A stretch of 64,000 nucleotides of DNA, taken from the NCBI RefSeq assembly GCF_000003815.2, contig NC_049983.1:1637857-1701856 (forward strand). Direction: 5' to 3'. A program made the position numbers and the translations under genes. The notes beneath the pieces are model-generated. The model ran no database searches. It had not been told where the DNA came from and worked only from the letters and a program-made list of their open reading frames with translations. This DNA is from Branchiostoma floridae (taxonomy: Eukaryota; Chordata; Leptocardii; Amphioxiformes; Branchiostomatidae). Positions 4,482 to 49,746 of the stretch are shown here, one piece after another. Position 1 is the stretch's first letter. Every line of letters begins with the position of its first letter.

Positions 4482-7400
4482 TTATCGTCGTGCTGAAAAG
4501 ATAAGCGGCACTTTGACTAAATTTAAACTATGTGAATTTCTGAGTTTCACAAATAAGATATAAACAGTGAATAGTAATAAATAACTACAGCACTTCTGGA
4601 CCATAACATTAGATGAATCCCGATTAATGGCAGCTTCACATGACGTACCTGGAGCAACTTGGCAGATGAAGTTAAAAAAGCCGGTACATCGCCAGTTCAT
4701 CCACTTGCCTTTCCGATATAGGGAGTAAGAAACGCAGTCACCAGGACCATTCGGTTTTCCCAGAAACCAAGAGTTGTAGTCACCAAGTGCAGAACCGTCC
4801 ACCCACTCAAAGGTCCCCTTTTCGCGCTGACGGTGCAGGCCCAACCAGAATGTATAATCGTCGCGCATGGACTTGTACAAGGAGACCACGAAGTCGTTGG
4901 TGTCAGCGTCTCGGGGCATGGCGAGGGTGCCGCCGTCTTCACGACAGGCCGCGGCCGCATCGCTGAAAGTCTTACGTGTGTTGAAGGCCTTGTAGCAGAT
5001 TCCGCGCCACATTTTGTAATCTCCGGGGCAAGATGCTGAAAAAAATAAATTTGCTGTAATTTTGAAAGTACTTTTAACTATATACTGCAAGAGAGAAAAA
5101 TGTACTTAGAGAGCGAGAAAGACCAGACAAGAGAGAGATACTATGCTGTGAGCTCCTTTGGCGTAAAAGATTGTCAGAGAACTGAACCGAATAAAAAATT
5201 ACACATTAATCTTTCGGTACGTGCTGGAATGTGTATCTCACCTGCATCTTCAGTCGGTACGACAGGGCTTGGAGACTGGGACATATCTGTGGGACCGGGC
5301 CGCCAGACGGGTTCCTTCGGCCCTCGGGGCCCAACTGGTCCGGGCGGCCCGTCCTTTTCCACAGCGCCAGCTGGCCCCACGGCTCCCTTTTCTCCGGGTG
5401 GCTCGGCAGACACAGGGCCAACTAGCCCCATGACTCCCTTTTCTCCGGGTGGCTCGGCAGACACAGGGCCAACTAGCCGCATGACTCCCCTTTCTCTTGA
5501 ACATCCGGGTGGTCCTGAGGAAGTAAAACTACGATTACGGACTATATTTTCCACACAAAAAACACTAATAAAAAGTCATCAAAACAATCTTTTTTTTTTT
5601 TTTAATTAAAGGCTTCTATGGTCATTCCAACTTGCCTGGCGACTTGCTCATCTCGTGAAGACACTGCTCTAAAGTGGCATGCAGGTTCCGCTCGTTGTCC
5701 ACGTCACGTTTCAAGGCGTCAACGGTGATGGTCAGTTCCGATATTTCCTAAAGACGGTTCGGGATGTCAGGCTTAAAAGTACCAACTACAGAAGTTTAAT
5801 TACCAATTATCTAAGAAACAAAACTACTGTAATGAAAAGGTAATAAAATTGTCAACATTCAATACAGTGTTCACCTTCTTATTGATGAAGGTCAGAGGGG
5901 CGAGTCCGACAGCGACTAGACCCAGCAGCACAGCAATGCCGGCCGTCAAGTAGTAGCAGTGGGAGCGGTAGAAGCTGCCGAGAGCACGGAGGCCGCTTGC
6001 CCCACCCGGATACTTGCGGTCTGTTAGAGGTAGTTGTTTATTTTTTTGTATTTTTACTCCGCGTACCTTAGGTAAGGTACTGAGTGAGCATATCGTTCCT
6101 CTACCTAGTTTATGAATATTCAATGTTCAACTAAGATGTGGTAGATATTAACCCTATTCAGACCGGGGGGGGGGGGGGGCCTAGCTCTAAATGTTATGAA
6201 GTAGATTTCTAGCGAGGTCGACGCCCATGAAGCCGGTTCTTTCAAATGTAGAGTAACCAATTAACGCCAGACCGGTGGCACGAGGGCCAGGGACGAATGT
6301 TTCACACCTATTCTCCGTCGATTACTAGCTGTTAAATACCGTCAATACATTACAAAGGACATCTTTGTGGGGCTTCCTTTAGTTTGCAGCATGTATTTTT
6401 ATGAGCTGGTCCCTTTGAATGCTAGTTATATAGAATAGAAGGACGGACTGAATAATCAGCAAACAACACGACTTGAGTGCATAACGCATATATTTGACAA
6501 CTTTCTACAGCCGTTGTACACCGGGTCATCAGAGACGTCTCTTTACCTTGTTACAAGGTACAAGTTGTAAGTTGTAGAACTACGTACTGTTTTTATTTTT
6601 GTGAATGCAAGGAAATAGCACTGAAACATAGGGTGACACGTAGTAAAAGTCACAACTTTTTGGGTGACAACATTTTTGGGGAGTGACAAGAAGCGAAACA
6701 TTTCAGTTACAAAAGTACGACCGTATAGTGATAAAAAGTAAAATATTCAACAAAGAAAACTTTTTAAAAAAGTTAAAAAAATTGCACCACGTCAGGTTCG
6801 AACTCTGGTCCAAAAGTTACAAATCCAATCACTGGTCAACTACGCCACGAAGCCTTGAGGTTCAAGTTGACGAAAAAATAGAACTAAAGTGACAAAGCGC
6901 GTAATAAAAGAGACGGAAATAAACTGTAAGGCCGTCATTTCAAAACGTTTAATGGCACGAAAACTCGCTACAGTCCCGACACCTTTAGATCACCAAAGTA
7001 AACTTTTAAACTGATATATAGAGTTGTTTGTGAGCAAGTAAAGCTCCCGCACGGTGCAAAATGACGAACAATAATGCCTGCTTGATTTGAGTTCACGGCA
7101 TTTGCATGATAAGCAAGGGTGCGAAAAGCTCGCAGTTATCGCCCAATGTCAGTGACCTGCCAGCAGCTATTTGATTGGTCCTCGCTAGAAACTACTGAAT
7201 GTCAAATAGTCTACACGGGGGGGGGGGGGTGGGCTTTTGAGGCATGCGGCAATTTTGATGTCCTATAACGCCAGAACGGCTTACGCTAGAGCCACTAAAT
7301 TTGATGAGTTTTCCTAAAATATTGTTGGCAACAATTTTACGAAGATTGACAAATTTTCAATTTTTTCGTGTTGCCATGGCAACCGTTTGTTGACAGGCAG

Positions 7401-10723: not shown

Positions 10724-11779
10724 GTAAGGCTTATCAACAATCAGTATCAAGAGTATTTAGATACATATTCTAAGAGTTTCTGGTCACTTTTGTGGGAAAA
10801 AGATCATAGTAAGATGTGAAAATTGTGGCAATATGAAGAGGGAGGGTTGAAGCCAAATGTACTCGCCTGTTCTTACCACCTACATGCATGCAACATGCTG
10901 GTTGGGAAGGATGGTACTGACAAATAACAACGCAACATTACGTTTAAATGTGGAAAATCAATGAAATTAGGCTTGAGATCAGAGAATGAGCTATTTTGAG
11001 TAGTGGCTACCAGACTGACTGCGCTGGCTGTTATAGAGAGAACAATTTACGAGGGGAGTATTGCTACCTGAGGCGTTGGCCAGCCGCGCACGGGAAACAT
11101 TAACCTTAGCATGGAAAGAGTCCCCCGGCCAATTTCCCGATTTTTTTTGCTGAATTCTACGACCCTCGTAGAAACGCCTGATGGAGGCTATATTTTAGGG
11201 AAAAGGGGAGTGCATTCATTGATTCAAGGAAAGATTCTGAGCGAGTGTCTAGCAAATGTCTAGCAATTTGAGAAAACCTACTTTTCATTTAAATCGAGAG
11301 GCATGTCAGGATTGTTTTAGGTTAATCTTGATGAACATAGGAAGTCCGGTTCTATTTGTTTTGCAAGTATCTGGTTATGTGAAAAGCCATAAAGCCAGGG
11401 CTACCCAACTAGCCGGAGGCTATGATTAAGGGCGGGGCTGTTAACTGCACAATATGCAATGAATCTATAAACGGTTACAATGCACAGAAAACATTCAGAG
11501 ATACATGCATCTTTACGGACTGGGTTGTACAAATGGCCCACAGACAACCGAGCACCTGGGACAACTCGGAAACATACTTACTCGGCACTTAATATCTGTT
11601 CTCTACGTACTAGGTGATACAAATAACGCAAAGTAGGGACTTAAGATACTATCTGTGATAAAAGCAATGTTACAAGGCTATCCATATAAAAGCTGTTTGG
11701 CATTATCATTGTATTAATCATTTATTGGTTTGGCTGTTCAATACGTGCAGCCAAGGATTCTCAACTAGCTTGTGGCTAT
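10724..11779 (+). other. Intron of the zinc-finger gene, proximal part
   Basis: No gene seen. About 11540-11787 is duplicated at about 20330-20479 (shared landmarks: ACTCGGCACTTAATAT, ATACAAATAACG, CTATTACAAAGAG), showing a local tandem duplication of the intron end. Confidence 0.45.
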
Positions 11780-11821
11780 TACAAAGAGGCAGATGTTTCA
11801 TGTAAGACATCACGAAATCGC

Positions 11822-12150
11822 CGGCAAGCGCAGCCAGGCTTGCGGGGGTCTGTCGGGGTCGATGCCCGATCGCGCCGTCCATGTGTACGCTACATCATCA
11901 CGATGTACGCGTCGATAACGTCATGATATTGTCGGCAAGCGCAGCCAGGGATACGGGGGCCTGTCGGGGCCCGTGCCCGATCGCGCCGTCCATGTGTACG
12001 CTACATCATCACGATGTACGTGTCGGTAACGTCACGAAATTGTTGGGAAGCGCAGCCAGGGATGCGGGGCCCATCAAGGTGCATGCCCGATCGCGCAGTA
12101 CATGTGACAGGCGCATCATCGCGTATAAGATGTTGTGCATGGCCGTTTCT
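11822..12150 (+). repeat. 111-bp subterminal tandem repeat, left arm
   Basis: About three copies, at 11822, 11933 and about 12044. Each contains GCAAGCGCAGCCAGG, CGATCGCGCCGTCC and TACATCATCACGATGTACG. The period is a multiple of three, so one frame stays open with a 37-residue repeat; that is not evidence of coding. Confidence 0.85.
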
Positions 12151-13830
12151 ACTGGTGTATTACACTATACATATGGTCTAAAATGCCCTGTAGTATTGTA
12201 GCAGGTCTTGCCGCTACAAGGGTATCGGGGCATGCCACTGCTCGTGTGCGGGATGACCTGGGCTTTCCGCCGTAGAAGATATTGTGGTTGATCGTTACGA
12301 CTGGTGTGACATTGTACGGATGGTCTTAAATGCCCTGTAGTATTGTAGTATTGTAGTAGATCTTGCCGCTGTGAGGCTAGCGGGGTACACCGCTGCTCAC
12401 GTACGGGGCGACCAGGCCTTACATGCCGTAAAAGATATTGAGATTGACCGTTTCTATTGATGTATTACATTATACGTATGGTCTAAAATGCCCTGTAGTA
12501 GTGTAGTATTGTAGTAGGTCCTGCCGCTACGAGGGTAACGGGGCACGCCACTGCTGGTGTACGGGACGACCTGGCCTTTCAGCCGTAGAAGATATTGTGG
12601 TTGGTCGTTTCGACTGGTGTGACATTATACGGAAGGACTAAAATGCCCTGCAGTAGTGTAGTATTGTAGTAGGTCTTGTCGCTACAAGGGTAACGGGGCA
12701 TGCCACTTCTCGTGTACGGGACGACCTGGGCTTTCAGCCGTAGAAGATATTGTGGTTGATCGTCTCGACTGGTGTGACATTATACGGAAGGACTAAAATG
12801 CCCTGTAGTAGTGTAGTATTGTAGTAGATCTTGCCGCTGCGAGGGTAGCGGGGCATGTCACTTCTCGTGTACGGGACGAGCTGGGCTTTCAGCCGTAGAA
12901 GATATTGTGGTTGGCCGTTTCGACTGGTGTGACATTGTACGGAAGGACTAAAATGCCCTGTAGTATTGTAGTATTGTAGTAGGTCTGGTCGCTACAAGGG
13001 TATAGGGGCATGCCACTTCTCGTGTACGGGACGACCTGGGCTTTCAGCGGTAGAAGATATTGTGGTTGATCGTTTCGACTGGTGTGACATTATACGAATG
13101 GTCTGAATTGCCCTGTAGTAGTGTAGTATTGTAGTAGGTCTTGCCGCTATGAGGGTAGCGGGGCACGCCACTGCTGGTGCACGGGACGACCTGGCCTTTT
13201 TATGCCGTAAAACATATTGAGGTTGACCGTTCCTACTGATGTATTACATTATACTGATGGTTTGAAATGCCCTGTAGTAGTGTAGTATTGTAGTAGATCT
13301 TGCCGTTACGAGGGTAGCGGGGCACGCCACTGCTGGTTTACGGGACGACCTGAGCTTTCAGCCGTAAAAGATATTGTGGTTGGCCGTTTCGACTGGTGTG
13401 ACATTATACGGAAGGACTAAAATGCCCTGTAGTAGTGTAGTATTGTAGTAGATCTTGCCGCTTCGAGGGTAGCGGGGCATGTCACTTCTCGTGTACGGGA
13501 CGACCTGGGCTTTCAGCCGTAGAAGATATTGTGGTTGGCCGTTTCGACTGGTGTGACATTATACGGAAGGACTAAAATGCCCTGTAGTAGTATGGTATTG
13601 TAGGAGGTCTTGCCGCTACAGGTGTAGCGGGGCACGCCACTGCTGATGTTCGGGACGACCTGGCCTTTCATGCCGTAAAAGATATTGAGGTTGACCGTTC
13701 CTACTGATGTATTACAGTATACGAATGGTCTGAAATGCCCTGTAGTAGTGTAGTATTGTAGTAAGTCTTACCGCTACAAGGGTGTCGGGGATACACCGCT
13801 GCTCACGTACGGGTCAACCCCATCTTCCGA
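12150..13830 (+). repeat. 156-bp tandem repeat array, left arm
   Basis: Successive CTGGTGTGACATTATACGG landmarks fall at 12301, 12457, 12613, 12769, 12924 and 13079, giving a period of 155-156 bp, for about eleven units. Two sub-variants (CTGGTGTGACATT and CTGATGTATTACATT) are interspersed. Confidence 0.85.
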
Positions 13831-15504
13831 TCGACCTCTTTTTTTTTCATGCAGTGACTTTTGATTATATACAGCCTTTCAATATTGAGCTAAGATTTTC
13901 TGAGCTATATATGACATATATTTCAGATGTCATCTTCAGGGGTAATGTTACTACATGAACACTTCAAAATTGTATCTTCTATGGATAAAAGTGAATTTCA
14001 TCTTCATTATCAACAAAATGCGATTGATGTAAGCGAAAGGGTTCGAATTTTTTCTGTAGATATACATGTATAATTCCCACGAAATTCCTTGTCACCGAGC
14101 ATGAAATCGATCGGCTGATGGGTCTTGGATCTCTAAATGATGTTTTGGACAGTAATACGCCCATCGACCGATGTTCGTATGTCTTCAAGCCGCGTTTAAT
14201 GTGATCGGGTAGATAAAAATGAAAACATACAATGGCCCGAGAAAACGGTAAGAGGATGATCTCTAAAAATAACCATTTTGAAGTAGAATAAACTGGGGAC
14301 CGTGCTACTGCTGTTTGGCTGGTGACAAGTAAAGTTAACTCGTAACTGCAATTTTGTGTTCTAAGGTCGACACGTCAGTTAATTATAAGTCCGCCAAATT
14401 CGTTGCGATATGCTTTGTCAGGGTGTTGTCTCTAGCTATTTGTCCTCTGTTTCAATAGATGATGCATTATGAAGAACATCGAGAATCTAAACCAAACAAG
14501 TTCAAATTCAAATGTTTTGAAAGAATATAGAACCTATTGCAACGGCGTGTCTAGATATCAATAACAGTGCGAAAACATATAATGTGTTTGTATTTTTTTC
14601 TTGTGAAAGCCCGTGGAGAGAAATAAGACTGGTTTCCATAACCTACATATAAACTTGGAGCTGCGCATGTACATTGTGCATTCAGGTAACGGTTTATCCG
14701 TCAGACATGTTAAACTTTGCATATTACATGCATTCGTATCCCATCGACAATACCGAAAAGTGTTACTTTTCAATAAATAAAACAGAGGATTTCTATCTAT
14801 GTATGGTACTCTACAGTGATACCAAAGTATCGAGCAAATGTTGAGAACATATGAAGGATTATTCCGACATGGTAAAACGTCAGACGTATTTTAAACAGAA
14901 CGTCAGTGATCCAAGTCAATTGTGAATTGTGTAAATCCAATGTTTTATTACACGCAGGATCCTTGGTCTTAGATATCATTATGGGAAGTTAGGTTGTAAA
15001 TAACAAGGTACCGTACCTATATTGAAACACTCATAGGATGAAAGAACTTTTTAAGACTCGAACGCAACATGACATTCGAAGACTGCTTTCTGCCTTGTGA
15101 TACAAATTGGAAGTATTTTTTTCTAATGATATGGGTAATCGTGCGTTCTTGCCATTTGGATACTAATTTCAGTCTACATGCGAAGACATGGGACCATGAC
15201 ATTTAAACATTTCAAGTACAACAGAAAAATATGACATTTTCCATTAACACAACACAACGCTACACTTTTCTTGTTCCTCCTTAATACGCCATGAAAAGAA
15301 GTATAATTAATTGTGGTGCGAATGTTCAACCCCTACGGTAGATATTACAGGATTAAACAAAACACTGATTTTGGATTATATAATTGATATAAAAGGAAGA
15401 AATGACTAGTCAAAGAGTCATTTCTTTTTACGGGCCATAACGTAACAAATTTCATGTCACTGGCCTAATAGAATACGTACGTGAACAGTGTGCCCGATAC
15501 CTAA
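13831..15504. other. Unique central loop of the foldback element
   Basis: AT-rich, with no supported gene. A short perfect hairpin (AAGAAATGACT/AGTCATTTCTT) lies at about 15398-15427. Small open frames are scattered and featureless. Confidence 0.5.
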
Positions 15505-18180
15505 GTCCTACTACAATACTACAGGACATTTTAGACCTTCCGTATAATGTCACACCAGTCGAAACGACCAACCACAATATCTTCTACGGCTGAAAGCCCA
15601 GGCCGTCCCGTACACGAAAAGTGGCATGCCCCGATACCCTTACAGCGGAAAGACCTACTACAATACTACAATACTACAGGGCATTTAAGACCATCCGTAT
15701 AATGTCACACCAGTGGGAACGACCAACCACAATATCTTCTACGGCTGAAAGGCCAAGTCGTCCCGTACACGAGAAGTGGCATACCCCGATACCCTTGTAG
15801 CGGCAAGACCTACTACAATACTACATGACGTTTCAGACCATATGTAAAATATAATACACCAGTATGAACGGTCAAGCACAACATCTTTTACGGATGAAAG
15901 GCCAGGTAGTCCCATAAACCAGCAGTGGCGTGCCCCGCTGCCCTCGTAGCGGCAAGACCTACTACAATACTACACTACTACAGGGCATTTCAGACCATCC
16001 GTATAATGTAATACATCAGTAGGAACGGTCAACCTCAATATCTTTTACGACATGAAAAGGCCAGGTCGTCCCGTACACCAGCAGTGGCGTGCCCCGCTAC
16101 CCTCGTAGCGGCAAGACCTACTACAATACTANNNNNNNNNNNNNNNNNNNNNNNNNNNNNNNNNNNNNNNNNNNNNNNNNNNNNNNNNNNNNNNNNNNNN
16201 NNNNNNNNNNNNNNNNNNNNNNNNNNNNNNNNNNNNNNNNNNNNNNNNNNNNNNNNNNNNNNNNNNNNNNNNNNNNNNNNNNNNNNNNNNNNNNNNNNNN
16301 NNNNNNNNNNNNNNNNNNNNNNNNNNNNNNNNNNNNNNNNNNNNNNNNNNNNNNNNNNNNNNNNNNNNNNNNNNNNNNNNNNNNNNNNNNNNNNNNNNNN
16401 NNNNNNNNNNNNNNNNNNNNNNNNNNNNNNNNNNNNNNNNNNNNNNNNNNNNNNNNNNNNNNNNNNNNNNNNNNNNNNNNNNNNNNNNNNNNNNNNNNNN
16501 NNNNNNNNNNNNNNNNNNNNNNNNNNNNNNNNNNNNNNNNNNNNNNNNNNNNNNNNNNNNNNNNNNNNNNNNNNNNNNNNNNNNNNNNNNNNNNNNNNNN
16601 NNNNNNNNNNNNNNNNNNNNNNNNNNNNNNNNNNNNNNNNNNNNNNNNNNNNNNNNNNNNNNNNNNNNNNNNNNNNNNNNNNNNNNNNNNNNNNNNNNNN
16701 NNNNNNNNNNNNNNNNNNNNNNNNNNNNNNNNNNNNNNNNNNNNNNNNNNNNNNNNNNNNNNNNNNNNNNNNNNNNNNNNNNNNNNNNNNNNNNNNNNNN
16801 NNNNNNNNNNNNNNNNNNNNNNNNNNNNNNNNNGCCCAGGTCGTCCCGTACACGAGAAGTGACATGCCCCGCTACCCTCGTAGCGGCAAGATCTACTACA
16901 ATACTACACTACTACAGGGCATTTTAGTCCTTCCGTATAATGTCACACCAGTCGAAACGGCCAACCACAATATCTTTTACGGCTGAAAGCCCAGGTCGTC
17001 CCGTGCACGAGAAGTGACATGCCCCGCTACCCTCGTAGCGGCAAGACCTACTACAATACTACAGGGCATTTTAGTCCTTCCGTATAATGTCACACCAGTC
17101 GAAACGATCAACCACAATATCTTCTACGGCTGAAAGCCCAGGTCGTCCCGTACACGAGAAGTGACATGCCCCGTTACCCTCGAAGCGGCAAGATCTACTA
17201 CAATACTACAATACTACAGGGCATTTTAGCTTTCCGTATAATGTCACACCAGTCGAAACGGCCAACCACAATATCTTTTACGGCTGAAAGCCCAGGTCGT
17301 CCCGTACACGAGAAGTGACATGCCCCGCTACCCTCGTAGCGGCAAGACCTACTACAATACTACAATACTACAGGGCATTTTAGTCCTTCCGTATAATGTC
17401 ACACCAGTCGAAACGATCAACCACAATATCTTCTACGGCTGAAAGCCCAGGTCGTCCCGTACACGAGAAGTGACATGCCCCGCTACCCTCGAAGCGGCAA
17501 GATCTACTACAATACTACAATACTACAGGGCATTTTAGCTTTCCGGATCATGTCACACCCGTCGAAACGGGCAAACACGATATCTTCCACGGGTGAAAGC
17601 CCAAGTCGTCCCGTACACGAGAAGTGACATTGCCCGTTAACCTCGTAACCGTAAGATCTACTTCAATTCTATCCTACTACCGGGCCTTTTAGGCCTTCCG
17701 TATAATGTCACACCAGTCGAAGCGACCAACCACAATATCTTCTACGGCTGAAAGGCCAGGTCGTCCCGTACACCAGCAGTGGCGTGCCCCGTTACCCTTG
17801 TAGCGGCAGGACCTACTACAATACTACACTACTACAGGGCATTTTAGACCATACGTATAATGTAATACATCAGTAGAAACGGTCAATCTCAATATCTTTT
17901 ACGGCATGAAAGGCCTGGTCGCCCCGTACGTGAGCAGCGGTGTACCCCGCTAGCCTCACAGCGGCAAGATCTACTACAATACTACAATACTACAGGGCAT
18001 TTAAGACCATCCGTACAATGTCACACCAGTCGTAACGATCAACCACAATATCTTCTACGGCGGAAAGCCCAGGTCATCCCGCACACGAGCAGTGGCATGC
18101 CCCGATACCCTTGTAGCGGCAAGACCTGCTACAATACTACAGGGCATTTTAGACCATATGTATAGTGTAATACACCAGTA
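15505..18180 (-). repeat. 156-bp tandem repeat array, right arm (interrupted by assembly gap)
   Basis: Reverse complement of the left array. The gap at 16132-16833 means that copy number and arm length here are unknown. Near-identical adjacent units probably caused the gap. Confidence 0.85.
16132..16833. other. Assembly gap (702 N)
   Basis: Run of N inside the right-arm tandem array. Open frames that cross it are artefacts. Confidence 0.99.
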
Positions 18181-18189
18181 GAAACGGCC

Positions 18190-18653
18190 ATGCACAACAT
18201 CTTATACGCGATGATGCGCCTGTCACATGTACTGCGCGATCGGGCATGCACCTTGATGGGCCCCGCATCCCTGGCTGCGCTTCCCAACAATTTCGTGACG
18301 TTATCGACACGTACATCGTGATGATGTAGCGTACACATGGACGGCGCGATCGGGCACGGGCCCCGACAGGCCCCCGTATCCCTGGCTGCGCTTGCCGACA
18401 ATATCATGACGTTATCGACGCGTACATCGTGATGATGTAGCGTACACATGGACGGCGCGATCGGGCACGGGCCCCGACAGGCCCCCGTATCCCTGGCTGC
18501 GCTTGCCGACAATATCATGACGTTATCGACGCGTACATCGTGATGATGTAGCGTACACATGTACGGCGCGATCGGGCATCGACCCCGACAGACCCCCGCA
18601 AGCCTGGCTGCGCTTGCCGGCGATTTCGTGATGTCTTACATGAAACATCTGCC
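18190..18653 (-). repeat. 111-bp subterminal repeats with an internal element terminus
   Basis: About four inverted copies of the 111-bp unit, ending at 18653 with CATCTGCC, the same terminus as the element's outer end. It is followed directly by more array sequence rather than by a target duplication. Confidence 0.7.
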
Positions 18654-20017
18654 CTTCTATTATAGCGGCAAGACCTACTACAATACTACAATACTACAGG
18701 GCATTTTAGACCATCCGTATAATTTCACACCAGTCGAATCGATCAACCACAATATCTTCTACGGCTGAAAGCCCACGTCGTCCCTTACACGAGAAGTGGC
18801 ATGTTCCGATACCCTTGTAGTGGCAAGACCTACTACAATACTACACTACTACAGGGTATTTCAGACCATATGTATAATGTAATACATCAGTAGGAACGGT
18901 CAACCTCAATATCTTTACGACATGAAAGGCCAGGTCGTCCCGTACACGAGAAGTGGCATGCCCCGATACCCTTATAGCGGCAAGACCTACTACAATACTA
19001 CAATACTACAGGGCATTTTAGACCATCCGTATAATGTCACACTAGTCGAAACGGCCAACCACAATATATTCTACGGCTGAAAGCCCAGGTCGTCCCGTAA
19101 ACCAACAGTGGCGTGCCCTGCTACCCCCGTAGCGGCAAGACCTACTCCAATACTACAGGGCATTTTAGACCATCTGTTTAATGTAATACATCAGTAGGAA
19201 CGGTCAACTTAATATCTTTTACGACATGAAAGGCCAGGTAGTCCCGTACGTGAGCAGCGGTGCACCCCGCTAGCCTTACAGCGGCAAGAACTACTACAAT
19301 ACTACAGGGCATTTTAGACCACCCGTATATTGTCACACCAGTCGAAATGATCAACCACAATATCTTCTACGGCTGAAAGCCCAGGTCGTCCCGTACGTGA
19401 GCAGCGGTGTACCCCGCTAGCCCTACAGCGGCAAGACCTACTACAATACTACAATACTACAGGGCATTTTAGACCATCCGTATAATGTCGAACCAGTCGA
19501 AACAGTCAACCACAGTATCTTCTACGGCTGAAAGGCCAGGTAGTCCCGTTCACGAGCAGTGGTATGCCCCGATACCCTTGTAGCGGCAAGACCTACTACA
19601 ATACTACAGGGCATTTTAGACCATATATATATATAGTGTAATACGTACACCAGTAGGAACGGCCATGTACAATATATTTTACGCGATGATGCGCCTTTCA
19701 CATGTACTGCGCGATCGGGTATGGACCTTGATAGGCCCCACATCCCTGCCTGCGCTTGCCAACAATTTCGTGACGTTATCGACGCGTACATCGTGATGAT
19801 GTAGCGAACACACGGACGGCGCGAACGGACACGGGCCCCGACAGGCCCCCGCATCCCTGACTGCGCTGGCTGACAATTTCGTGACGTTATCGACGCGTAC
19901 ATCGTGATGATGTAGCGTACACATGGACGGCGCGATCGGGCATGGAACCCTACAGACTCCCGCATGCCTGGCTGCGCTTGCCGGCGATTTCGTGATGTCT
20001 TACACGAAACATCTGCC
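18654..20017 (-). repeat. Second partial right arm of the foldback element
   Basis: Repeats the 156-bp array (18654-19660) and then about three 111-bp units (19680-20017), ending in the outer terminus that carries the target duplication. Confidence 0.7.
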
Positions 20018-20236
20018 TACAAAGAGCCAGCCTTGCAATAATTACTGGCATGGCCTTGGCGAATACAAAGGATCACTGCATAGCCACTACTCACATTGAA
20101 GTCGGTCTTAATGTGTAGAGAAAAGATTCTATGGCCTGATCAAGTTGGAACTCGAAATGCTCTATTGTCGGTGTCAGGTTTGAATTTTCCTTGTATTTCG
20201 TTAATTAATTTCGTCTTTGGGTTTTTTGTCTTTAAG

Positions 20237-20383
20237 TTGGACATGGCAACCGTGGAACCTCGGTCACCCAACGAAAATAGTCTGAACTGTTATGTCGGTT
20301 CTATTACGGACTTCTTACGGACTAGGTTACAACTCGGCATCTGGAACAACTCGGCATCTGGAACAACTCGGCACATAGTTTAA
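20237..20383 (+). pseudogene. Truncated duplicate of a zinc-finger coding-exon start
   Basis: tctttaag/TTGGACATGGCAACC copies the exon start of the next gene (20672). The protein begins MATVEPRSPNENS, like MATIKRQAPNETN in the intact copy, then runs into intron-like sequence and stops at 20383 with no zinc finger. It still has a usable-looking acceptor, so transcripts could be diverted into it. Confidence 0.55.
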
Positions 20384-20671
20384 GACAAGTCGGCACCATT
20401 CTTACTCAGCACTTAATATGATCTAATATGGGAATACTACGTAGAAGTTTATACAAATAACGTAAAGCTATTACAAAGAGCCAGGCCTGCTGGACAAAAC
20501 AATACAAATGATCACTATATACACGCTATACACATTAAAGTAGGTCGTAATTTGTGGAGTTCAAAGTCGATGTAATGTGTAGAGGAAAAATCCTATGATT
20601 AAGTTGGAACTAGAAATGTTCTATTTTCAGTGTCAAGTTTTAATTTTTCCTGTTTTCTGTTTGTCTTTAGG

Positions 20672-21526
20672 TTGGACATGGCAACCATAAAACGTCAGGC
20701 TCCCAACGAAACCAATGTCGGGTCTCCCACCGGGGTTTCTCATGTTGCCTCTGACAGCAAAACAAACGACGCAGAAGACGTAATGGCAGCAAAGAAAGTC
20801 AGCTTAAACAACGTTGGTGATAGACCCTACATGTGTGGATTCTGTGGTTACGTGACAGGTATGAAGTCTAGATTGTCCCAACACATGAGAACCCATACAG
20901 GCGAAAGACCCTACAAATGTGACCGATGTGACTATTCTGCAGCACAGAAAGGACATTTGAACATTCATATAGCATTAAGACACACTGGTGAGAAACCCTA
21001 CATGTGTGGGGAGTGTGGGTACAGGACGGCTCATAAATCTAACTTGTCCAAACATATGACAAACCACACAGGTGAAAGACCCTACAAATGTGACCGATGT
21101 GACTATTCTGCAGCACAGAAACTAACTTTTGACAACCATATAGCAGCAAGACACACAGGCGACAAACCCTTTATGTGTGGGGAGTGTGGATACAGGACTG
21201 CTCGGAAATCTAGCCTATCTGAACATTGGAGAACGCATACAGGAGAAAAACCCTACAATTGTGACCAGTGTGACTATTCTGCAGCGAATAAATCCAATTT
21301 GAAAAACCACCTAGTAATTCATACAGGTGCGAAACCATACATATGCGGGGAGTGTGGGTACAGAGCAGCTCAAAGGTGTGGTTTGTCCTACCATATGAGA
21401 ACCCATACCGGAGAAAAACCATACCAGTGTGACCAGTGCAACTATTCTGCTGCACGGAAATCCAACTTGGATCGTCATTTAGCAAAACACACCGTTACAA
21501 AAGCCTACAAAGGAGAAAAGTTTTGA
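20672..21526 (+). CDS. C2H2 zinc-finger protein, 8 fingers (CDS from ATG at 20678)
   Basis: Start chosen at 20678 because tttag/GTTGGACATGG is an acceptor plus a start shared with sister genes; the upstream frame is intron. 282 residues: a short polar leader (1-47), then eight fingers alternating type A ([14 protein letters not shown]) and type B (KC..CDYSAA..L..H...H), linked by TGERP/TGEKP. Helix positions -1, 3 and 6 vary most between fingers, as expected for base contacts. Probably a nuclear sequence-specific DNA-binding protein; no KRAB, BTB or SCAN domain. The leader exon is probably the one ending at 10723, which would make the intron about 9.9 kb. The stop at 21524-21526 comes just after the eighth finger, and decayed fingers follow. 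Confidence 0.85.
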   Translation: MDMATIKRQAPNETNVGSPTGVSHVASDSKTNDAEDVMAAKKVSLNNVGDRPYMCGFCGYVTGMKSRLSQHMRTHTGERPYKCDRCDYSAAQKGHLNIHIALRHTGEKPYMCGECGYRTAHKSNLSKHMTNHTGERPYKCDRCDYSAAQKLTFDNHIAARHTGDKPFMCGECGYRTARKSSLSEHWRTHTGEKPYNCDQCDYSAANKSNLKNHLVIHTGAKPYICGECGYRAAQRCGLSYHMRTHTGEKPYQCDQCNYSAARKSNLDRHLAKHTVTKAYKGEKF

Positions 21527-25261: not shown

Positions 25262-26504
25262 TTAAGACATGGCAACAGCAGGACATGGGTCTCACACCAA
25301 AGTGGAGCAGAACTGTTACGATGCGTCCCTCACTGAGGTTCCGCTGGTTGACTGCGACAGCAAAACAAGCATTGCTGAAAACCAGACAGCAGCACAAGGT
25401 ATCAAGAACTCTAGTGAGAAACACTTCACTTGTGAGGAGTCTGGCTTCAGCACAGCTCGAAATACTAACTTTTCTGTGCATATGAGAACATATACAGGTG
25501 AGAAACCATACAGGTGTGACCAGTGTAATTATTCTGCTGCACGGAAACCCACATTAGAAGAGCATATTGCAGGAAAACACACCGGTGAGAAACCCTACAT
25601 GTGTGGGGAGTGTGGGTACAGGACAGCTTACAGGTCAGCCTTATCCCAACATATGAGAACCCATACTGGAGAAAAACCCTACAAGTGCGACCAGTGTGAC
25701 TATTCTGCAGCGTATAAATACAGTTTGAATCGTCATGTGACAGCAATGCATACTGGTGAACAACCCTACATGTGTGACAGTTGTGGGTTCGGGACTGCTC
25801 GGAAGTTTTCTTTGTTTCAACATATGAGAACCCATACAGGAGAAAAACCCTACAAGTGTGACCAGTGCGACTTTTCTGCAGCGCAGAAACCCAACCTTGA
25901 CCTCCATGTAGCAGCAAAACACACAGGTGATAAACCCTACATGTGCGATGACTGTGGATATAGGGCAGTTCAGAGGTGTACGCTATCCAGACATATGAGA
26001 ACTCATACCGGAGAAAAACCCTACAAGTGTGACCATTGTGACTATACTGCAGCAGGAAAGGCCACTGTTGACAACCATATTGCAGTAAAACACACTGGTG
26101 TGAAACCCTACATGTGTGGGGAGTGTGGGTTCAGAACAAATCAAAAGTCTAAGTTATCCAGGCATATGAGAACTCATACTAGGGAGAAGCCCTACAAGTG
26201 TGACCAGTGCGACTATTCTGCTGCTGTGAAATCCACTCTGGACAGGTATCTAGCAAGGCACACTGGTGAGAAGCCATACATGTGTGGGGAGTGTGGGCAC
26301 AGGACAACTCAGAAATATACCTTATCCAGGCATATGAGAATCCATACTAGCGAGAAGCCCTACAAGTGTGACCTGTGCGACTATTCGGCAGCACAGAAAT
26401 CCACTTTGGACAACCATGTGGCAGCAAAACACGAAGGTTACAAACAAAGAAACAAAAAAAAAGAAAAAAGAAACATCGACATTCCCCAACACCGCTCTCT
26501 TTAA
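25262..26504 (+). CDS. C2H2 zinc-finger protein, about 11 fingers (CDS from ATG at 25269)
   Basis: Acceptor attttag/TTAAGACATGG sets the exon start; ATG at 25269. 411 residues: a leader of about 48 residues, one degenerate finger (CEES...HMRTY, two ligands lost), then eleven fingers alternating types A and B. Many type B fingers use H-X4-H (HIAGKH, HVAAKH). The ninth has Tyr in place of the first zinc His (DRYLARH), so it is probably weak. The tail is basic (QRNKKKEKR), a possible nuclear-localisation signal. Leader exon at about 24000-24145; the poly(A) signal near 27110 resembles that of the gene at 37147. Confidence 0.88.
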
Positions 26505-32086: not shown

Positions 32087-33312
32087 TTAGTGTTTCTTTG
32101 AAGTGTGCCTTCTAAGGTGTCTGTTTAATGTGCGTTTCAGTGCAGCAGAATAGTCACAATAGTCACACTTGTAGGGTCTTTCTCCTGTATGAGTTCTCAT
32201 ATGTATGGGTAAGTCAGACTTCTTAGCTGTCCTGTACCCACACTCGCTACACGTGTATGGTTTTTCACCAGTGTGCTGTCTTAAATGTTGCTCCAAATTA
32301 GCTTTCTGTGCAGCAGAATAATCACACTGGTTACACTTGTAGGGCTTTTGCCCTGTATGGGTTCTCATGTGTACTGATAAGTTAGACCTATAGGCGGCCC
32401 TGTATCCACACTCCCCACACATGTAGGGTTTCTCCCCTCTGTGTTTTGCTAAATGTGCGTCCAAAGTGGATTTCTGTGTTGTAGAATAGTCACACTGGTC
32501 ACACTTGTAGGGTTTTTCTCCTGTATGAGTTTTCATATGTCGGGATAAGTGACACTTGTTAGCTGTGCTGTATCCACACTCCCTAAAAATGTAGGGGTTC
32601 TCACCACCACTGTGTTTTGCTAAATGTTGGTTCAAATTAGACTTCTGTGCTGCAGAATAGTCACACTGATCACACTTGTAGGGCTTTTCCCCTGTATGTG
32701 TTCTGATATGTGCGTATAAGACGCGTCTACGAGCCGTCCTGTACCCGCACTCCCCACATAGGTAGGGTTTGTCAGCGGTACGTTCAACCACAATGCCTAT
32801 AGTCTCCTGTACCTGTGAGGTTAATGTACTTTGAGGTTGGGGAAATCTTACGTCACACGTTTCCTGCTGCAGGCCCATGTGTGTTGTCTGGGTCTCCCCG
32901 CTGTCACTCTCCTTCCCAGGGTGTTCTTTACAGTCCATCTCATGCCCAGGATGACCAGAACACAGGTCACTAGTAGAAATTTCACAGTTGGACTCTTCCA
33001 TTTCTGCTCTAACACCGCATATTCCGTCGTTCGGAATGTCATTTTTCTCTGCCTGCTGCCGTCCTGTATTTGTTGTCTGCTCCCAACTGTTGTGAGTCTC
33101 GTTCCGAGGATGCCCGGTTAATTGGGTTGTGCCAAAGTAGTCGTAGGTCTCCTGGTCCTCACTGTACGTTTCCTGACGCAGCACATTCTCTTGTTTATCC
33201 TGTTTCGCATGCCATTCAGTGTCTCTTGTCTCCTCTTTGATTTGCATCTCGTTTACAGTATCTTCCCCATTAGGTTCTTGATTGGGCGGCAGACACGTGA
33301 ACTCCGACATGT
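32087..33312 (-). CDS. C2H2 zinc-finger protein, 8 fingers, acidic leader (CDS from ATG at 33310)
   Basis: Start set at 33310 by the acceptor ccattttag/ACATGTCGG; further upstream frame is intron. 407 residues: a long acidic, Gln/Glu-rich leader (1 to about 190; [13 protein letters not shown]..., PGHE/PGKE motifs), then eight fingers of alternating A and B types. The third finger reads IFREC, so its first zinc Cys is Phe. The leader matches the one in the partial gene at the window start, so the two form a subfamily. The acidic leader could act in activation or recruitment, but no named domain is visible. The leader exon probably lies at about 34990-34892. Confidence 0.88.
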
Positions 33313-33654
33313 CTAAAATGGTGGTAAGAAAACACGGATAAGATTTTTTTTTCTTCAAACAAATCTTTTACAAACATTTCACAAAATAGAAATGGGTAAA
33401 GAGTCGAAGTAGTGGACCCGTTTTAGGTATTCGGTTGTTTTTTCTAGTTACAAAATCTTTAAGTGATACAACAGTATAGGCCAATGACCTATAGGTTCGA
33501 TCTAGGAAATAAATATACGCCTGCGGCGGCATATACTGGTATTCCTTTCACAAAACAATTTAGAGGCCGGACAACCATACCAATGTTCATGTTCTAAAAC
33601 TCAGGTAGGTGATATTTGACAGGATATTTCTGCCACGATTCCCGTTGGTAAGTA

Positions 33655-35691: not shown

Positions 35692-37139
35692 GTAAGAACG
35701 AGATATGCATACAACATGACTGCATTATTGTGAACTATAGGGGGTAGAGGTTCTTTTCATGGTATGTGGGCAACATCATGCAGAATTGTAAGTCTTTTCG
35801 GGGTGACGAAAATGAGTGTGGGGAGGGGGGCGTCTTTACCTTCACATGAACAAAGGAAATTCAAAGCATAATTGTTTTGCCCCATTTCATCTGCCCCTAC
35901 TTCCTCTCTATCTACTCCAAACAAATAATGAACGGCCCGGTTGCTGTCACCATGGTTACTTGGGTCGTAACAGTCACTCTGTGCTGTTCGGTTACAGATG
36001 AACTTTAAATTGCACGACATTTGTACATGGTACAATGTATGGCAACGACTATTACACAAAGTACACATGGCAAGTATCAGGACAAAGCTCATGGGGCTAG
36101 ATTATGTTTGTGTTAGACTAAACGGGTCTCGCTTAAAACGGCTAGTCTACCCGATCAGGTGAATCTACTCAAGATGCCACTGGGGTCATTTAGTTCTTTG
36201 GGAGAGTATACTGTAAAATGGGTAGAACTTTTACGACGGGTGATTTGCTGTGAGCTGTTGGCAATCACAAAGGACATGGGGCTAAAATGACAGAGCTGTA
36301 GATTTTGTGACGGTAGAAAAAAAAAAAAAAACTTCTTCTAAATAGATTGTTATCGGTATCATCTTTATAACTTCCTGTCACTGTATAGTGAACGTGGCTA
36401 GTATATCAGAGCAAGGACTTGATTAGAGACAGATGTATTTTGTAATTGCAAAACACAAGAAACAGAAAAAAGAAAACAACACCTATTCGTAAATAGATTT
36501 TTTAAGGTTTGTACTCTAAAAGAACCCCATAAATTCAGATAATGTAAACCACCAGTGCTGAGTGACATATATATGGTTCTTCCGAAAGAGTCAAATTTTT
36601 AAGGGGGGGTCCATTTTAGAGTGGGATGATTTTTTTTGGGGGGGGGGGATGCATAAATTAATTACTGCGAAAGATTTATATTGAACAGCTCACATTTTTG
36701 CATAGGGATGAAGATGGATTGAAATCTGATGTCTTTGCTCCCGATCAAATGTCGGCCTCTAGTTCATGTCACTGTAAAGTATATTGAAAACATATCTATT
36801 GGGAAATATATGCTTTGTGATTGAAAAGAAAAACAAAAGACTAAAGAACACATAACCGTAAATACCTTGTTAGGTATGACCATGAAAATATTAACATTCT
36901 TCTTCTTCTTCCGGTACTGTCCAACTGCTAAGGGATTGGCAATAATTTACATCTGTCGGGTCAAAGGTCGCCACTATTCAGTAGGCTAGAAAGAAGAGAG
37001 AGTACAGGCAACCTTTGAGGTGAAAGTGGCCAAGGACGGAGACTGGATGGTGTCTTTGGGCAGGGTGTTCGCTTGCTAGAATCTAGTTTTAATTGGTCCA
37101 TTTCGTCCTTTCTAATATTTTTTTTTTAAATTTCATTAG

Positions 37140-38247
37140 GTTCGACATGGCAGAGGAAGGTAATGAGTCTCCTACTACTGTTCCTCAGAACTTCTGTAAT
37201 GAATCTCCTACTGGACTATTATGTGGCATGGATGCAAGGAAAACCAAAGAACAGCCAATGTCGAGCAAAACCAGTTTGGTCAGTCAACCGAAAGCAAACA
37301 CTGGAGATAAGCCCTACATGTGTGGGGAGTGTGGGTACAGGGCAGATTATAAGTCTACCCTATCCCGACATATGAGAACCCATACAGGTGAAAAGCCCTA
37401 CAAGTGTGACCAGTGTGACTATTCTGCTACAATTAAGTCCAGCTTGGATAAACATCTAGCCAATCACAGTGGTGACAAACCCTACATGTGTGGGGAGTGT
37501 GGGTACAGAGCAACTCAGAAGTCATACTTATCCCAACATATGAGGACTCACACGGGTGAAAAACCCTTCAAGTGTGACCATTGTGACTATTCTGCTGCAG
37601 TGAAATCCTCTTTGGATGGGCATCTAGCAAACCACACTGGTGATAAGCCTTACATGTGTGGGGAGTGTGGATACAGGACAGTTCGGAAATCTCACTTATC
37701 CCAGCATATGCGAACTCATACTGGAGAAAAACCCTACAAGTGTAACCAGTGTGCCTATTCTGCAGCACACAAAATAAGTTTGGACCAACATCTAGCCAAA
37801 CACACTGGTGATCAGCCCTACATGTGTGGGGAGTGTGGTTACAGGACAGCTCGGAGATCTAGTTTATCTCAACATATGAGAACTCATACTGCTGACAAAC
37901 TCTACAAGTGTGACAAGTGTGACTATTCTGCTGCACAGAAGTTCACCTTGAACCAACATCTAGCTAAACACACTGGTGATAAGCCCTACATGTGTGGGGA
38001 GTGTGGGTACAGGACATCTTACAAGTCCAACTTATCCCAGCATATGAGAACTCATGCAAGTGACAAACCCTACAAGTGTGACCAGTGTGACTATTCTGCT
38101 GCACAGAAATCCAAGTTGACCCACCATCTAGCCAAACACACTGGTGATATGCCCTACATGTGTGAGGAGTGTGCATACAGCACAGCACAGAAGTGTCACT
38201 TAATCCGACATATGAGAACTCATACTGGAGAGAACCCCTACAAGTAG
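37140..38247 (+). CDS. C2H2 zinc-finger protein, 11 fingers, shortened C-terminus (CDS from ATG at 37147)
   Basis: Acceptor ttcattag/GTTCGACATGG; start at 37147 (MAEEGNESPTTVPQNF). 366 residues: a leader of about 54 residues, then eleven canonical fingers in strict A/B alternation. Type B fingers are followed by TGDKP/TGDQP rather than TGEKP. The stop follows directly on ENPYK, before the next finger. The DNA there reads tacaagtag-tacaagtgt, so a 9-bp duplication has made a stop, and finger-like sequence goes on beyond it for about 100 bp. The gene belongs to the duplicated block that also carries the gene at 48154. Probably still functional with eleven fingers. Confidence 0.87.
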
Positions 38248-41229: not shown

Positions 41230-42720
41230 AGGTCTATGGAGACCTCCCCCTTTTATGTATAGGTGCAAAAAAAGATGTCAGAATGGTAGCGTTTATTTTT
41301 AAGAAGAGGCATTGCTTTTACCAAATTAAGAGTATTTTCCGCTCAATATACCACATGCGCCGTTCAATAAAGCAGCGGCTTCAAATGAATAGCTCCTGCT
41401 GTGTTTGCGTGTTAAGTTTAACCAAGAAAAGAAAATCTCCTCCTGTGTGAAAGCTACATATAACAGATACAATCTTTCCGATGTCTTTCCGTTACATTTG
41501 AGCTGACTTTACATAAAAGGGGGGAGGTTTAAGCAAACCTCCCCCCTTTTATGTATAGGTGGAAAAAAGATGTCGGAAAGGTAGCGTTAATCATTACTTG
41601 AAGAAGAGGCACTACTTTTACCAAATTAAGAGTATTTTCCGCTCAATATGCCACATGCGTCGTTCACTAAAGCAGTGGCTTCAAATGAAGAGCTCCTGCT
41701 GTGTTTGCGTGTTAAGTTTAACCAAGAAAAGTAAATATCCTGTGTGAAAGCTACATATAACAGATACAATCTTTCCGATATCTTTCCGTTACATTTGAGC
41801 TGACTTTACATAAAAGGGGGGAGGTTTAAGCAAACCTCCCCCCTTTTATGTATAGGTGGAAAAAAGGTGTCGGAAAGGTAGCGTTAATCATTATTTGAAG
41901 AAGAGGCATTGCTTTTACCAAATTAAGAGTATTTTCCGCTCAATATAGTACATGCGCCGTCCACTAAAGCAGCAGCTTCAAATGAATAGCTCCTGCTGTG
42001 TTAGCGTGTTAAGTTTAACAAAGAAAAGCAAATCTCGTCCTATGTGAATGCTACATATAAAAGATACAATCTTTCCGATGTCTTTCCGTTACATTTGAGC
42101 TGAGGTGGAAAAAAGATGTCGGAAAGGTAGCGTTAATCATTATTTGAAGAAGAGGCATTATTTTCCGCTCAATATACCACATGCGCCCTCACTAACGCAG
42201 CGGCTTCGCCTGAATAGCCCCTGCTGTGTTAACGTGTTGAGTTTAACCAAGATAAGCAACATTTACTCCTGGTTAAAACTTACATATAGCAGATACATTT
42301 TTTGGAATGTATAGGTGCAAAAAAGATGTCGGAAAGGTAGCGTTAATTATTATTCTTAAAAGAGGCATTGCTTTTACCAAATTACAAGTATTTTCCGCTC
42401 AATATACCACATGCGCCGTTCACTAAAGTAGCGACCTTGCCTGAATAACTCATTCTGTGTTAGCGTGTTTGACGAAACCAGGAAAATCAAAATATCCTCA
42501 TGGGTGAAACATAAATATAACATATGGTATCTTTCCAATGTCTTTACGTTACCATTGAGCTCACTTTACACAAAAAGATGCTATGTACAGGTGCAAGAAA
42601 GATGTCGGAAAGGTAGCGTTTATTTTTTCCAGTAGTATCGTATGTTACCGATATCGTTCCGTTACCTTTGCCTTTGAGCTTACTTTTCAGAAAACTCTCT
42701 GAACTTTTTTTACAGAGGTG
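41230..42720 (+). repeat. About 295-bp tandem repeat with perfect palindromes
   Basis: Roughly five diverging copies sharing GATGTCGGAAAGGTAGCGTT, ACCAAATTAAGAGTATTTTCC and GCTCCTGCTGTGTT. Two copies contain a palindrome with 20-bp perfect arms and a 4-nt loop (41511-41554 and 41808-41851; arm AAAAGGGGGGAGGTTT). Confidence 0.8.
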
Positions 42721-44603: not shown

Positions 44604-44935
44604 GGTTTTGTAATATGATAGGAGACTGTCTTGTTCTGTGATATGATCGAACGCATAATTATGGTATTATGATAGAAACAAAGTCGTGGCTTTTTTCTAA
44701 GAGAGGTTCTGTGATATAATCGAACGCATAATTATGGTATTATGATAGAAACAAAGTCGTGGCTTTGTTCTAAGAGAGGTTCTGTGATATGATCGAACGC
44801 ATAATTATGGTATTATGATAGAAACAAAGTCGTGGCTTTGTTCTAAGAGAGTAGTTAAAGTCGTGGTTTTGTAATGTGATAGGAGTCAACATCATGCTTT
44901 TGTAATACGATATGAGAATTTAGTGTCACTTGATA
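44604..44935 (+). repeat. Resumed tandem repeat, plus a 73-bp repeat
   Basis: Continuation of the array left at 40828. Inside it, CGAACGCATAATTATGG recurs at 44648, 44721 and 44794, a 73-bp period with three near-identical units. Confidence 0.75.
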
Positions 44936-46860: not shown

Positions 46861-48146
46861 GTAAGAACGAGATGTGCATACAGCATGACTGCATTATTGT
46901 GAACTATAGGGGGTAGAGGTTCTTTTCATGGTATGTGGGCAACATCATGCAGAATTGTAAGTCTATTCGGGGTGACGAAAATGGGTGTGGGGAGGGGGGC
47001 ATCTTTACCTTCACAGGAACAAAGGAAATTCAAAGCATAATAATTAAAAATTTGTTTTGCCCCGTTTCATCTGCCCCTACTTCCTCTTTATCTACTCCAA
47101 ACAAATAAAGAACTGGCCAGTCACTGTCACCATGGTTACTGGGGTCGTAACAGTCACTCTGCTCTGTGGTGTTCGGTTACAGATGAACTTTAAATTGAAC
47201 GACATTTGTACATGGTACAATGTATGGCAACGACTATTACACAAAGTACACGTGGCAAGTATCAGGACAAAGCTCATGGGGCTAGATTATGTTTGTGTTA
47301 GACTAAACGGGTCTCGCTTAAAACGGCTAGTCTACCCGATCAGGTGACCGATAAATCTACTCAAGATGCCACTGGGGTCATTTAGTTCTTTGGGAGAGTC
47401 TACTGTAAAATGGGTAGAACTTTTATGACGGGTGATTTGCTGTGAGCTGTTGGCAATCACAAAGGACTTGGGGCTAAAATGACAAAGCTGTAAATTTTGT
47501 GACGGTAGAAAAAAAAACTTCTTCTAAATAGATTGTTATTGTTATCATCTTTATAACTTCCTGTCACTGTATAGTGAACGTGGCTACTAGTAGTATATTA
47601 GAAACATATATATTTTGTAATTGCAAAACACAAGAAACAGAAAAAGAAAACAACACCTATTCGTAAATAGTTTTTTTTAAGGCTAGATCATGTTAAAGAC
47701 CAGGTTTGTACTCTAAAAACACCCCATTTATTCAGATAACGTAAACCACCAGAGCTGAGTGACATACTAGTGTATATGGTTGTTCCGAAAGAGTCCAATT
47801 TTTTAGGGGGGGGGGTCCATTTTAGAGTGGGATGATGTTGTTTTTGTTGAACAGCTCACATTTTTGCATAGGGATGAAGATGGATTGAAATCTGATGTCT
47901 TTGCTTCCGATCAAATGTCGGCCCTTTTTTATCACTTCATGTCACTGTAAAGTATATTAAAAACATATCTATTGGGCAATATATGCTTTGTGATCGAAAA
48001 GAAAAACAAAAACTAAAGAACTCATAACCGTAAATGCCTTGTTAGGCTAGACCATGAAAAGTAAACGTTATTTGTTTGCTTGCTAGAATCTAGTTTGAAT
48101 TGGTGTATCTCGTCTTTTCTAATACATTTTTTTTTTATTCTATAAG

Positions 48147-49746
48147 GTTCGACATGGGAGAGGAAGGTTGTGGGTCTCCTACTACTGTTCCTCAGAACTT
48201 CTGTAATGAGTCTACTACCGGACTATTATGTGGCATGGATGCGATAAAAACCAAAGACCAGCCAATAGCGAGCAAAAAAAGTTTGGTCAGTCAACCGAAA
48301 GCAAACACTGGAGATAAGCCCTACATGTGTGGGGAGTGTGGGTACAAAACAGCATGGAGGTCTAACTTATCCCAACATAGGCGAACACACACAGGTGAAA
48401 AACCCTACAAGTGTGACCAGTGTAACTATTCTGCTGCACAAAAATCCAGCTTGGCCATTCATCTAGCAAAGCACACTGGAGATATGCCGTACATGTGTGG
48501 GGAATGTGGGTACAGGACAGCTCAAAAGTTTATCCTATCCCGACATATGAAAACCCATACAGGTGAAAGGCCATACAAGTGTAACCAGTGTGACTATTCT
48601 GCTACTTGTAAGTCCAACTTGGACAGACATCTAGCCAAACACAGTGGTGACAAACCCTACATGTGTGAGGAGTGCGGGTTCAGGGCAGCTCAAAAGTCAG
48701 ATTTATCCACACATGTAAGGACTCACACGGGTGAAAAACCCTACAAGTGTGACCAGTGTGACTATTCTGCTGCAGTGAAGTCCACTTTGGACAGGCATCA
48801 AGCAAAGCACACTGGGGATAAGCCCTACATGTGTGGGGAGTGTGGATACAAGTCAGCTCGGAAGTTTGATTTATCCCTACACATGAGAACCCATAACGGT
48901 GAAAAACCCTACAAGTGTGACAAGTGTGACTATTCTGCAGCAAGGAAATGCCATTTGGACCAACATCTGGCAAAGCACAATGGTGAGAAACCATATATGT
49001 GTGGGGAGTGTGGATACAGGACAGCTCAAAGGTATAGGTTATCCCGACACATGAGAACACACACAGGGCAAAAACCCTACAAATGTGACCAGTGTGACTA
49101 TTCTGCCGCAGAAAAAGCCAATTTTGACCGTCATTTAGCAAACCACACCGGTGAAAAACCTTACATGTGTGGGGATTGTGGGTACAGAACAACTCGGAAG
49201 CCTGACTTAGCGAAACATATGAGAACTCATACCGGTAAAAAACCCTACAAGTGTGACCAGTGTGACTATTCTGCATTACAGAAAAGTGATTTATACAAGC
49301 ATTTAGTAAAACATACTGGTGATAAGCCCTACATGTGTGGCGAGTGTGGGTACAGATCAGCTCTGAAATCTACCTTATCCAAACATATGAGAACTCATAC
49401 CGGTGAGAAACCCTACAAGTGTGACCGGTGTGACTATTCTGCTGCACAGACGTCCGCGCTGAACCAACATCTAGCCATACATACTGGTAATAAGCCCTAC
49501 ATGTGTGGGGAGTGTGGGTACAGGACAGTTAAAAAGTGTCATTTATCAGAACATATGAGAACTCATACTGGTGAAAAACCCTACAAGTGTGACCATTGTG
49601 ACTATTCTGCTGCAGTGAAATCCAGTTTGGACAGGCATCTAGCACAGCACACTGGTGTACAGCCGTACATGTGTTGGGAGTGTGGGTACAGGACAGCTCA
49701 CCAGTCTAACTTAGTGAAACATATGAGGACTCATACCAGAAGATAA
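48147..49746 (+). CDS. C2H2 zinc-finger protein, 17 fingers (CDS from ATG at 48154)
   Basis: Acceptor ctataag/GTTCGACATGG; start at 48154 (MGEEGCGSPTTVPQNF). 530 residues: a leader of about 54 residues nearly identical to that of the gene at 37147, then seventeen uninterrupted fingers in A/B alternation (odd [10 protein letters not shown].., even [10 protein letters not shown]..), ending THTRR. All zinc ligands are intact. With a two-finger unit of 168 bp, copy number can change by unequal exchange, which fits 17 against 11 fingers in the sister gene. Nuclear DNA-binding role inferred; no effector domain is visible. Confidence 0.9.

Follow-up and report, generated by a model that had tools for sequence, protein, structure and literature searches.

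A 64,000-nucleotide stretch of Branchiostoma floridae DNA (contig NC_049983.1, positions 1,637,857 to 1,701,856, forward strand), referred to here as the window, carries a foldback element at window positions 11788-20017, a length of 8,230 bp. The left end of the element begins with GGCAGATGTTTC (11788-11799, + strand), and the exact complement, written GAAACATCTGCC, closes the right end at 20006-20017. As read from an alignment, the two outer ends mirror each other at 41 of their first 42 bases. Of the 27 bases at the left end, 26 are mirrored in the outer right end and all 27 in a third terminus lying within the right arm, compared with 19 matches for the best shuffled 27-mer in the window (50 shuffles). 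The motif GGCAGATG was found at all three termini, which gives the element 5'-GG ends. An exact 8-bp target-site duplication (TSD), TACAAAGA, flanks the element; from the base composition, the chance of eight flank bases matching is approximately 2e-5. The ninth flank base, a G, agrees too, but on the left side this G is the first base of the element itself. An earlier note on this DNA had placed a foldback element in the same interval, with one inverted terminus of 42 bases shared by both ends, and the mirrored termini and the exact duplication bear this out.

The site as it would appear without the element is also present in the window, in a diverged tandem copy of the host DNA just downstream. 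Flank pieces at 11513-11633 and 20062-20276 match 20315-20467 and 20501-20711, respectively, with 70-78% identity, and when the flanks are joined with one copy of TACAAAGA they align across this second copy with a score of 197.5, whereas none of 100 shuffles exceeded 33.5. The sequence GCTATTACAAAGAGCCAG is unbroken over the junction; the 28 junction bases by themselves score 20, with a maximum of 14 among 100 shuffles. The paralogous copy shows the target once and lacks the element, and one insertion took place at a formerly empty site. The host DNA duplicated here looks like the beginning (5' part) of a gene for a C2H2 zinc-finger protein. In the copy next to the element, the frame starts at an ATG at 20243, begins with MATVEPRSPNEN and is closed by a stop after 46 codons; in the paralogue, the ATG lies at 20678 and the frame reads on into C2H2 zinc fingers. 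A 44-base segment of the left flank (11389-11432) has an inverted match of 86% identity 9 kb upstream, at 2338-2381, and is perhaps a small dispersed repeat. Because of the mirrored exact termini, the 8-bp duplication and the paralogous empty site, we are highly confident that the element is an inserted foldback-type DNA transposon with long terminal inverted repeats (TIRs), and it is best read as non-autonomous.

The arms are long inverted repeats with internal direct tandem repeats, the structure by which foldback elements are recognised. Units of 111 bp adjoin the termini and units of 155 bp lie farther in. Tandem-repeat detection placed the 111-bp arrays at 11810-12106, 18224-18619 and 19736-19995, and the 155-bp arrays at 12189-13813, 15509-16131, 16834-18141 and 18660-19608. 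The earlier note had described two nested periods, of 111 bp outside and 156 bp inside; the outer period and the placing of one outside the other hold, but the inner unit measures 155 bp and the arrays are serial, abutting end to end rather than nested. The loop, given there as non-coding and 1.65 kb long, measures 1,683 bp, and no transposase domain was found in it; a gap of 702 Ns and the third terminus had gone unmentioned. The Ns occupy part of the right arm, so that its size and number of units are provisional. The earlier note called the outer units CpG-rich. The observed/expected CpG ratio reaches 1.33 (11807-12106) and 1.36 (18224-18619) in the two 111-bp arrays for which it was measured; two 155-bp arrays gave 1.00 and 1.10, the loop 1.06 and the remainder of the window 0.76. 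When one unit of each kind was compared, the local score was 11 in either orientation (shuffles: mean 9.3, maximum 16), and a common origin of the two kinds was not detected. Single-unit hairpins, one unit per kind, had fold energies no more than one standard deviation from those of shuffles, and a search of Rfam at gathering scores over 11000-21000 gave no matches. Exact-pattern searches, a weak test in the wrong kind of organism, found the terminus in no viral contig and the 155-bp unit in no prokaryote genome contig. Within the right arm, the 155-bp units at 17055-17511 repeat pairwise (17202/17511 at 99%, 17055/17356 at 98%), which amounts to a doubling at this place with a period of 309 bp; the periodicity of the left arm differs, with a 469-bp period of three units.

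The right side of the element is two arms in tandem, R1, which ends at 18653, and R2, which runs from 18654 to 20017. The exact 12-base terminus recurs at the end of R1 (18642-18653, - strand) and joins a 155-bp unit in mid-unit, without a gap. The adjoining CTTCTATT is no repeat of TACAAAGA, and its match to the 155-bp units is too weak to call. When one 111-bp unit found only in R1 is set aside, the left arm, L, agrees with R1 at 844 of 849 aligned outer bases, the remaining five being substitutions. L agrees with R2 at 550 of 600 outer bases (approximately 92%), with 90-94% identity per 100 bases in this part and 81-91% beyond it. The order of the 111-bp units is kept across the three arms: L1, R1a and R2a are 95-99% identical, L2, R1b, R1c and R2b 89-99%, and L3, R1d and R2c 92-100%, compared with 85-89% for full units compared out of position. 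Among the 28 units of 155 bp compared, the two outermost in L have partners in R1 at 100 and 99% identity and the third at 94%, after which one-to-one pairing ends. The features of the element and its target are given in Table 1.

Table 1. Features of the foldback element, its target-site duplication and the paralogous empty site (window positions)
Feature	Position	Strand	Remarks
Left target-site duplication, TACAAAGA	11780..11787	+	Equals 20018-20025; single at empty site, 20472-20479
Left terminus	11788..11806	+	19 bp before first 111-bp unit; starts GGCAGATGTTTC
Left outer array	11807..12107	+	111-bp units L1, L2, partial L3
Left inner array	12108..13819	+	Truncated unit, then about ten 155-bp units
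Unique loop	13820..15502	.	No other match in window; no transposase domain found
Right arm, inner 155-bp units	15503..16131	-	Mirror orientation
Assembly gap in right arm	16132..16833	.	702 N
Right arm R1, 155-bp units	16834..18222	-	17540-17693 unusually divergent
Right arm R1, 111-bp units	18223..18634	-	R1a-R1d; one more than left arm
Third, internal terminus	18635..18653	-	Same end base as outer ends; abuts CTTCTATT, then 155-bp unit
Extra right arm R2, 155-bp units	18654..19697	-	
Extra right arm R2, 111-bp units	19698..19998	-	R2a-R2c
Right outer terminus	19999..20017	-	
Right target-site duplication, TACAAAGA	20018..20025	+	
Paralogous empty site	20315..20711	+	Diverged host duplicate without element; TACAAAGA once at 20472-20479

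Several observations weigh against the reading of the element as an inserted foldback-type transposon. The left arm is closer to R1 than to R2, the arm that bears the matching TSD, and a single clean insertion is therefore not a full explanation. No target duplication was recognised at the internal terminus, beyond which the arm's final nine bases agree with those of other units in just 2-5 positions, and the gap together with a divergent patch at 17540-17693 leaves space for misassembly. The empty-site alignment contains large gaps, one of approximately 140 bases that the left flank has and the second copy lacks, so that 20315-20711 represents a paralogue rather than an allele. A blastn comparison of the element with the remainder of the 64-kb window gave no match at E 0.01, and hence no second copy there. 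With respect to coding capacity, the 24 loop frames of at least 36 amino acids gave no Pfam match reaching the cut-off and no transposase, shorter or broken frames being unscanned, and no Pfam match at the cut-off was obtained for the four arm frames scanned out of 30 of at least 60 amino acids. Below the cut-off, four of the loop frames had matches to DUF6714 (E 0.18), Ezh2-like CXC (0.16), V-set_CD47 (0.063) and DNA_pol3_gamma3 (0.036), and two of the scanned arm frames to DUF7460 (0.021) and MetRS-N (0.28). The loop itself has 36% GC content and gave no blastn match at E 0.1 in the window beyond itself.

The following sequence of events would account for the element. A transposase made elsewhere would have cut at the GGCAGATG ends and brought about the insertion at TACAAAGA, with duplication of 8 bp. 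The 111- and 155-bp arrays are probably spaced binding sites for the transposase or for host proteins, an idea suggested by Galileo, for which secondary binding sites of the transposase are reported within the repeats (PMC3573991; PMC4079207), and such arrays would grow and contract through unequal exchange. The right arm would later have gained its second end, which now stands as an exact terminus in the middle of a 155-bp unit. A transposase-mediated route seems likely for this step: an end may have inserted into the right arm of its own copy or of a sister copy (a hybrid-end insertion; in hybrid-element insertion, the ends of two copies cooperate [PMC2775673, PMC3744419]), or a nested insertion may later have been reduced. 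We put this route for the doubling of the arm a little short of an even chance. The outer 0.85 kb of L and R1 would then have been made near-identical by gene conversion from arm to arm, a step added because neither the insertion of an end nor a reduced nesting by itself explains why L matches R1 better than R2.

Two other explanations concern the doubled arm only. The right side may record two insertions, a younger element comprising L and R1 and an older remnant, R2, joined through recombination of copies nested in one another, with L largely the arm of the younger element. The contrast between L/R1 and L/R2 over the outer part of the arms is in keeping with this, and an exact terminus within an arm is the expected trace of a nested insertion. 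However, L diverges from R2 from approximately base 13 inward, so that a crossover within the first dozen bases would be needed; a single loop is present, and the TACAAAGA of 11780-11787 is absent at 18654-18661. Two insertions are a possible but unlikely history. It could instead be supposed that R1 is partly an artefact of assembly, into which reads from another haplotype, or from the left arm with its near-identical sequence, were built, and that the true element is simpler, from 11788 to 20017. The gap of 702 Ns speaks for this, as does the patch at 17540-17693, which differs from L by 26 substitutions (15 of them transversions) in 151 aligned bases, compared with five in 849 just outside it, and whose 155-bp unit has a best match of only 88%; the patch may be poor sequence. 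However, L and R1 are divergent farther in as well (29 of 394), so that the drop in identity need not come from bad sequence alone. The internal terminus runs without a gap into an arm and not into host flank, so that simple misplacement of left-arm reads would be insufficient, and R1 exceeds L by one 111-bp unit. We regard misassembly of this kind as a possible but rather improbable explanation of the doubled arm.

A third explanation denies the transposon altogether and sees in the locus an inverted satellite array, produced by local amplification and formation of a palindrome. Tandem units do take up most of the 8.2 kb apart from the loop and the gap, and the scanned loop frames yielded no transposase, but the exact mirrored termini, the 8-bp duplication and the paralogous empty site are all at odds with such an origin, which is hardly credible.

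By its structure, the element belongs to the foldback elements, a known kind. The TU elements of sea urchin are deuterostome foldback elements with outer arm domains built of repeats and with 8-bp duplications; they resemble the amphioxus element in both respects and are unlike it in their short arm repeats of approximately 15 bp. Among the elements looked at, the closest in design, as judged by architecture, is Tetris of Drosophila virilis, which has long TIRs with an internal array of tandem repeats of approximately 220 bp each, a non-coding middle, TSDs of 8-9 bp in the three complete copies and no autonomous copy found; its TIRs have one tandem period instead of two and reach 1,735 bp, compared with approximately 2.0 kb for the left arm here (PMC4079207). 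The same paper cites a sea-urchin foldback element (Lieberman et al. 1983) and suggests that the foldback design arose independently in different lineages. The Tm1 Mutator/Foldback elements of Meloidogyne likewise have composite TIRs with tandem repeats variable in number, but these repeats are 13-15 bp long, the TSDs are mostly 9 bp and the 7-bp end motifs are asymmetric (PMC3169594). The likeness to FB/Galileo elements of flies proposed in the earlier note is confined to the design. Galileo of Drosophila was first classed as foldback-like and later placed in the P superfamily through its transposase; it shares long, internally repetitive TIRs, unequal repeat number between the arms of a copy and exchange of TIR sequence between copies, but its TIRs reach approximately 1.26 kb in D. 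mojavensis, with a repeat of approximately 210 bp present two or three times (PMC3573991). Membership in Galileo was rejected on the TSD, which is 7 bp long there and 8 bp in the present element; no P-type transposase was found in the scanned loop frames of this copy. In open-licence PMC literature (Repbase not covered), no title among the matches listed names an amphioxus foldback element, and a search of one paper on amphioxus transposable elements for the word foldback gave no occurrence (PMC5802833).

Merlin elements have 5'-GG ends and TSDs of 8 or 9 bp, and some families contain internal tandem repeats (PMC8101967). The present element has the GG ends and an 8-bp duplication, and on these marks Merlin is our best guess at its superfamily, one that we would expect to be wrong somewhat more often than right; they are weak marks, and no transposase supports them. 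The Merlin families first described differ in having TIRs of 24-462 bp and a DDE_Tnp_IS1595 transposase, and the word foldback is absent from the text on them (PMC8101967); no IS1595-type DDE transposase was found in the loop frames of this copy. The 8-bp duplication also fits the 8-10 bp of Mutator, as used for Tetris (PMC4079207), although no transposase was found in this copy, and Mutator and other superfamilies may be candidates beside Merlin. A bolder reading is quite doubtful: a Merlin-type family with foldback arms derived from two unrelated serial minisatellites, whose transposase can insert an end of the element into its own arm, so that the arms grow by self-insertion and gene conversion between them then evens them.

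To our knowledge, it is not settled how kilobase-long repetitive foldback arms are acquired and kept up. This copy may catch two steps together, namely the fusion of an exact transposon end with an arm, and two arms that are more than 99% alike next to a third that is approximately 92% alike. Were self-insertion and gene conversion confirmed, they would explain how foldback arms lengthen, and if the family is Merlin, the foldback architecture would extend to another superfamily. Should the element prove to be a single copy or a misassembly, it would be of local interest only.

Elsewhere in the window, frames with C2H2 zinc fingers were found on both strands, at 1244-1855, 20603-21526, 25266-26504, 32087-33367, 37093-38247 and 48094-49746, and an 84-bp array at 55454-56201 may, by its period alone, be another zinc-finger candidate. 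A frame at 4482-5105 (- strand) contains a C-type lectin domain (Pfam Lectin_C, E 1.7e-19). The zinc-finger cluster and the lectin frame fit an animal. Two further tandem arrays lie at 41242-42103, with 2.9 copies of a 297-bp unit and 91% matches, and at 44633-44851, where a 73-bp unit is repeated three times with 97% matches.

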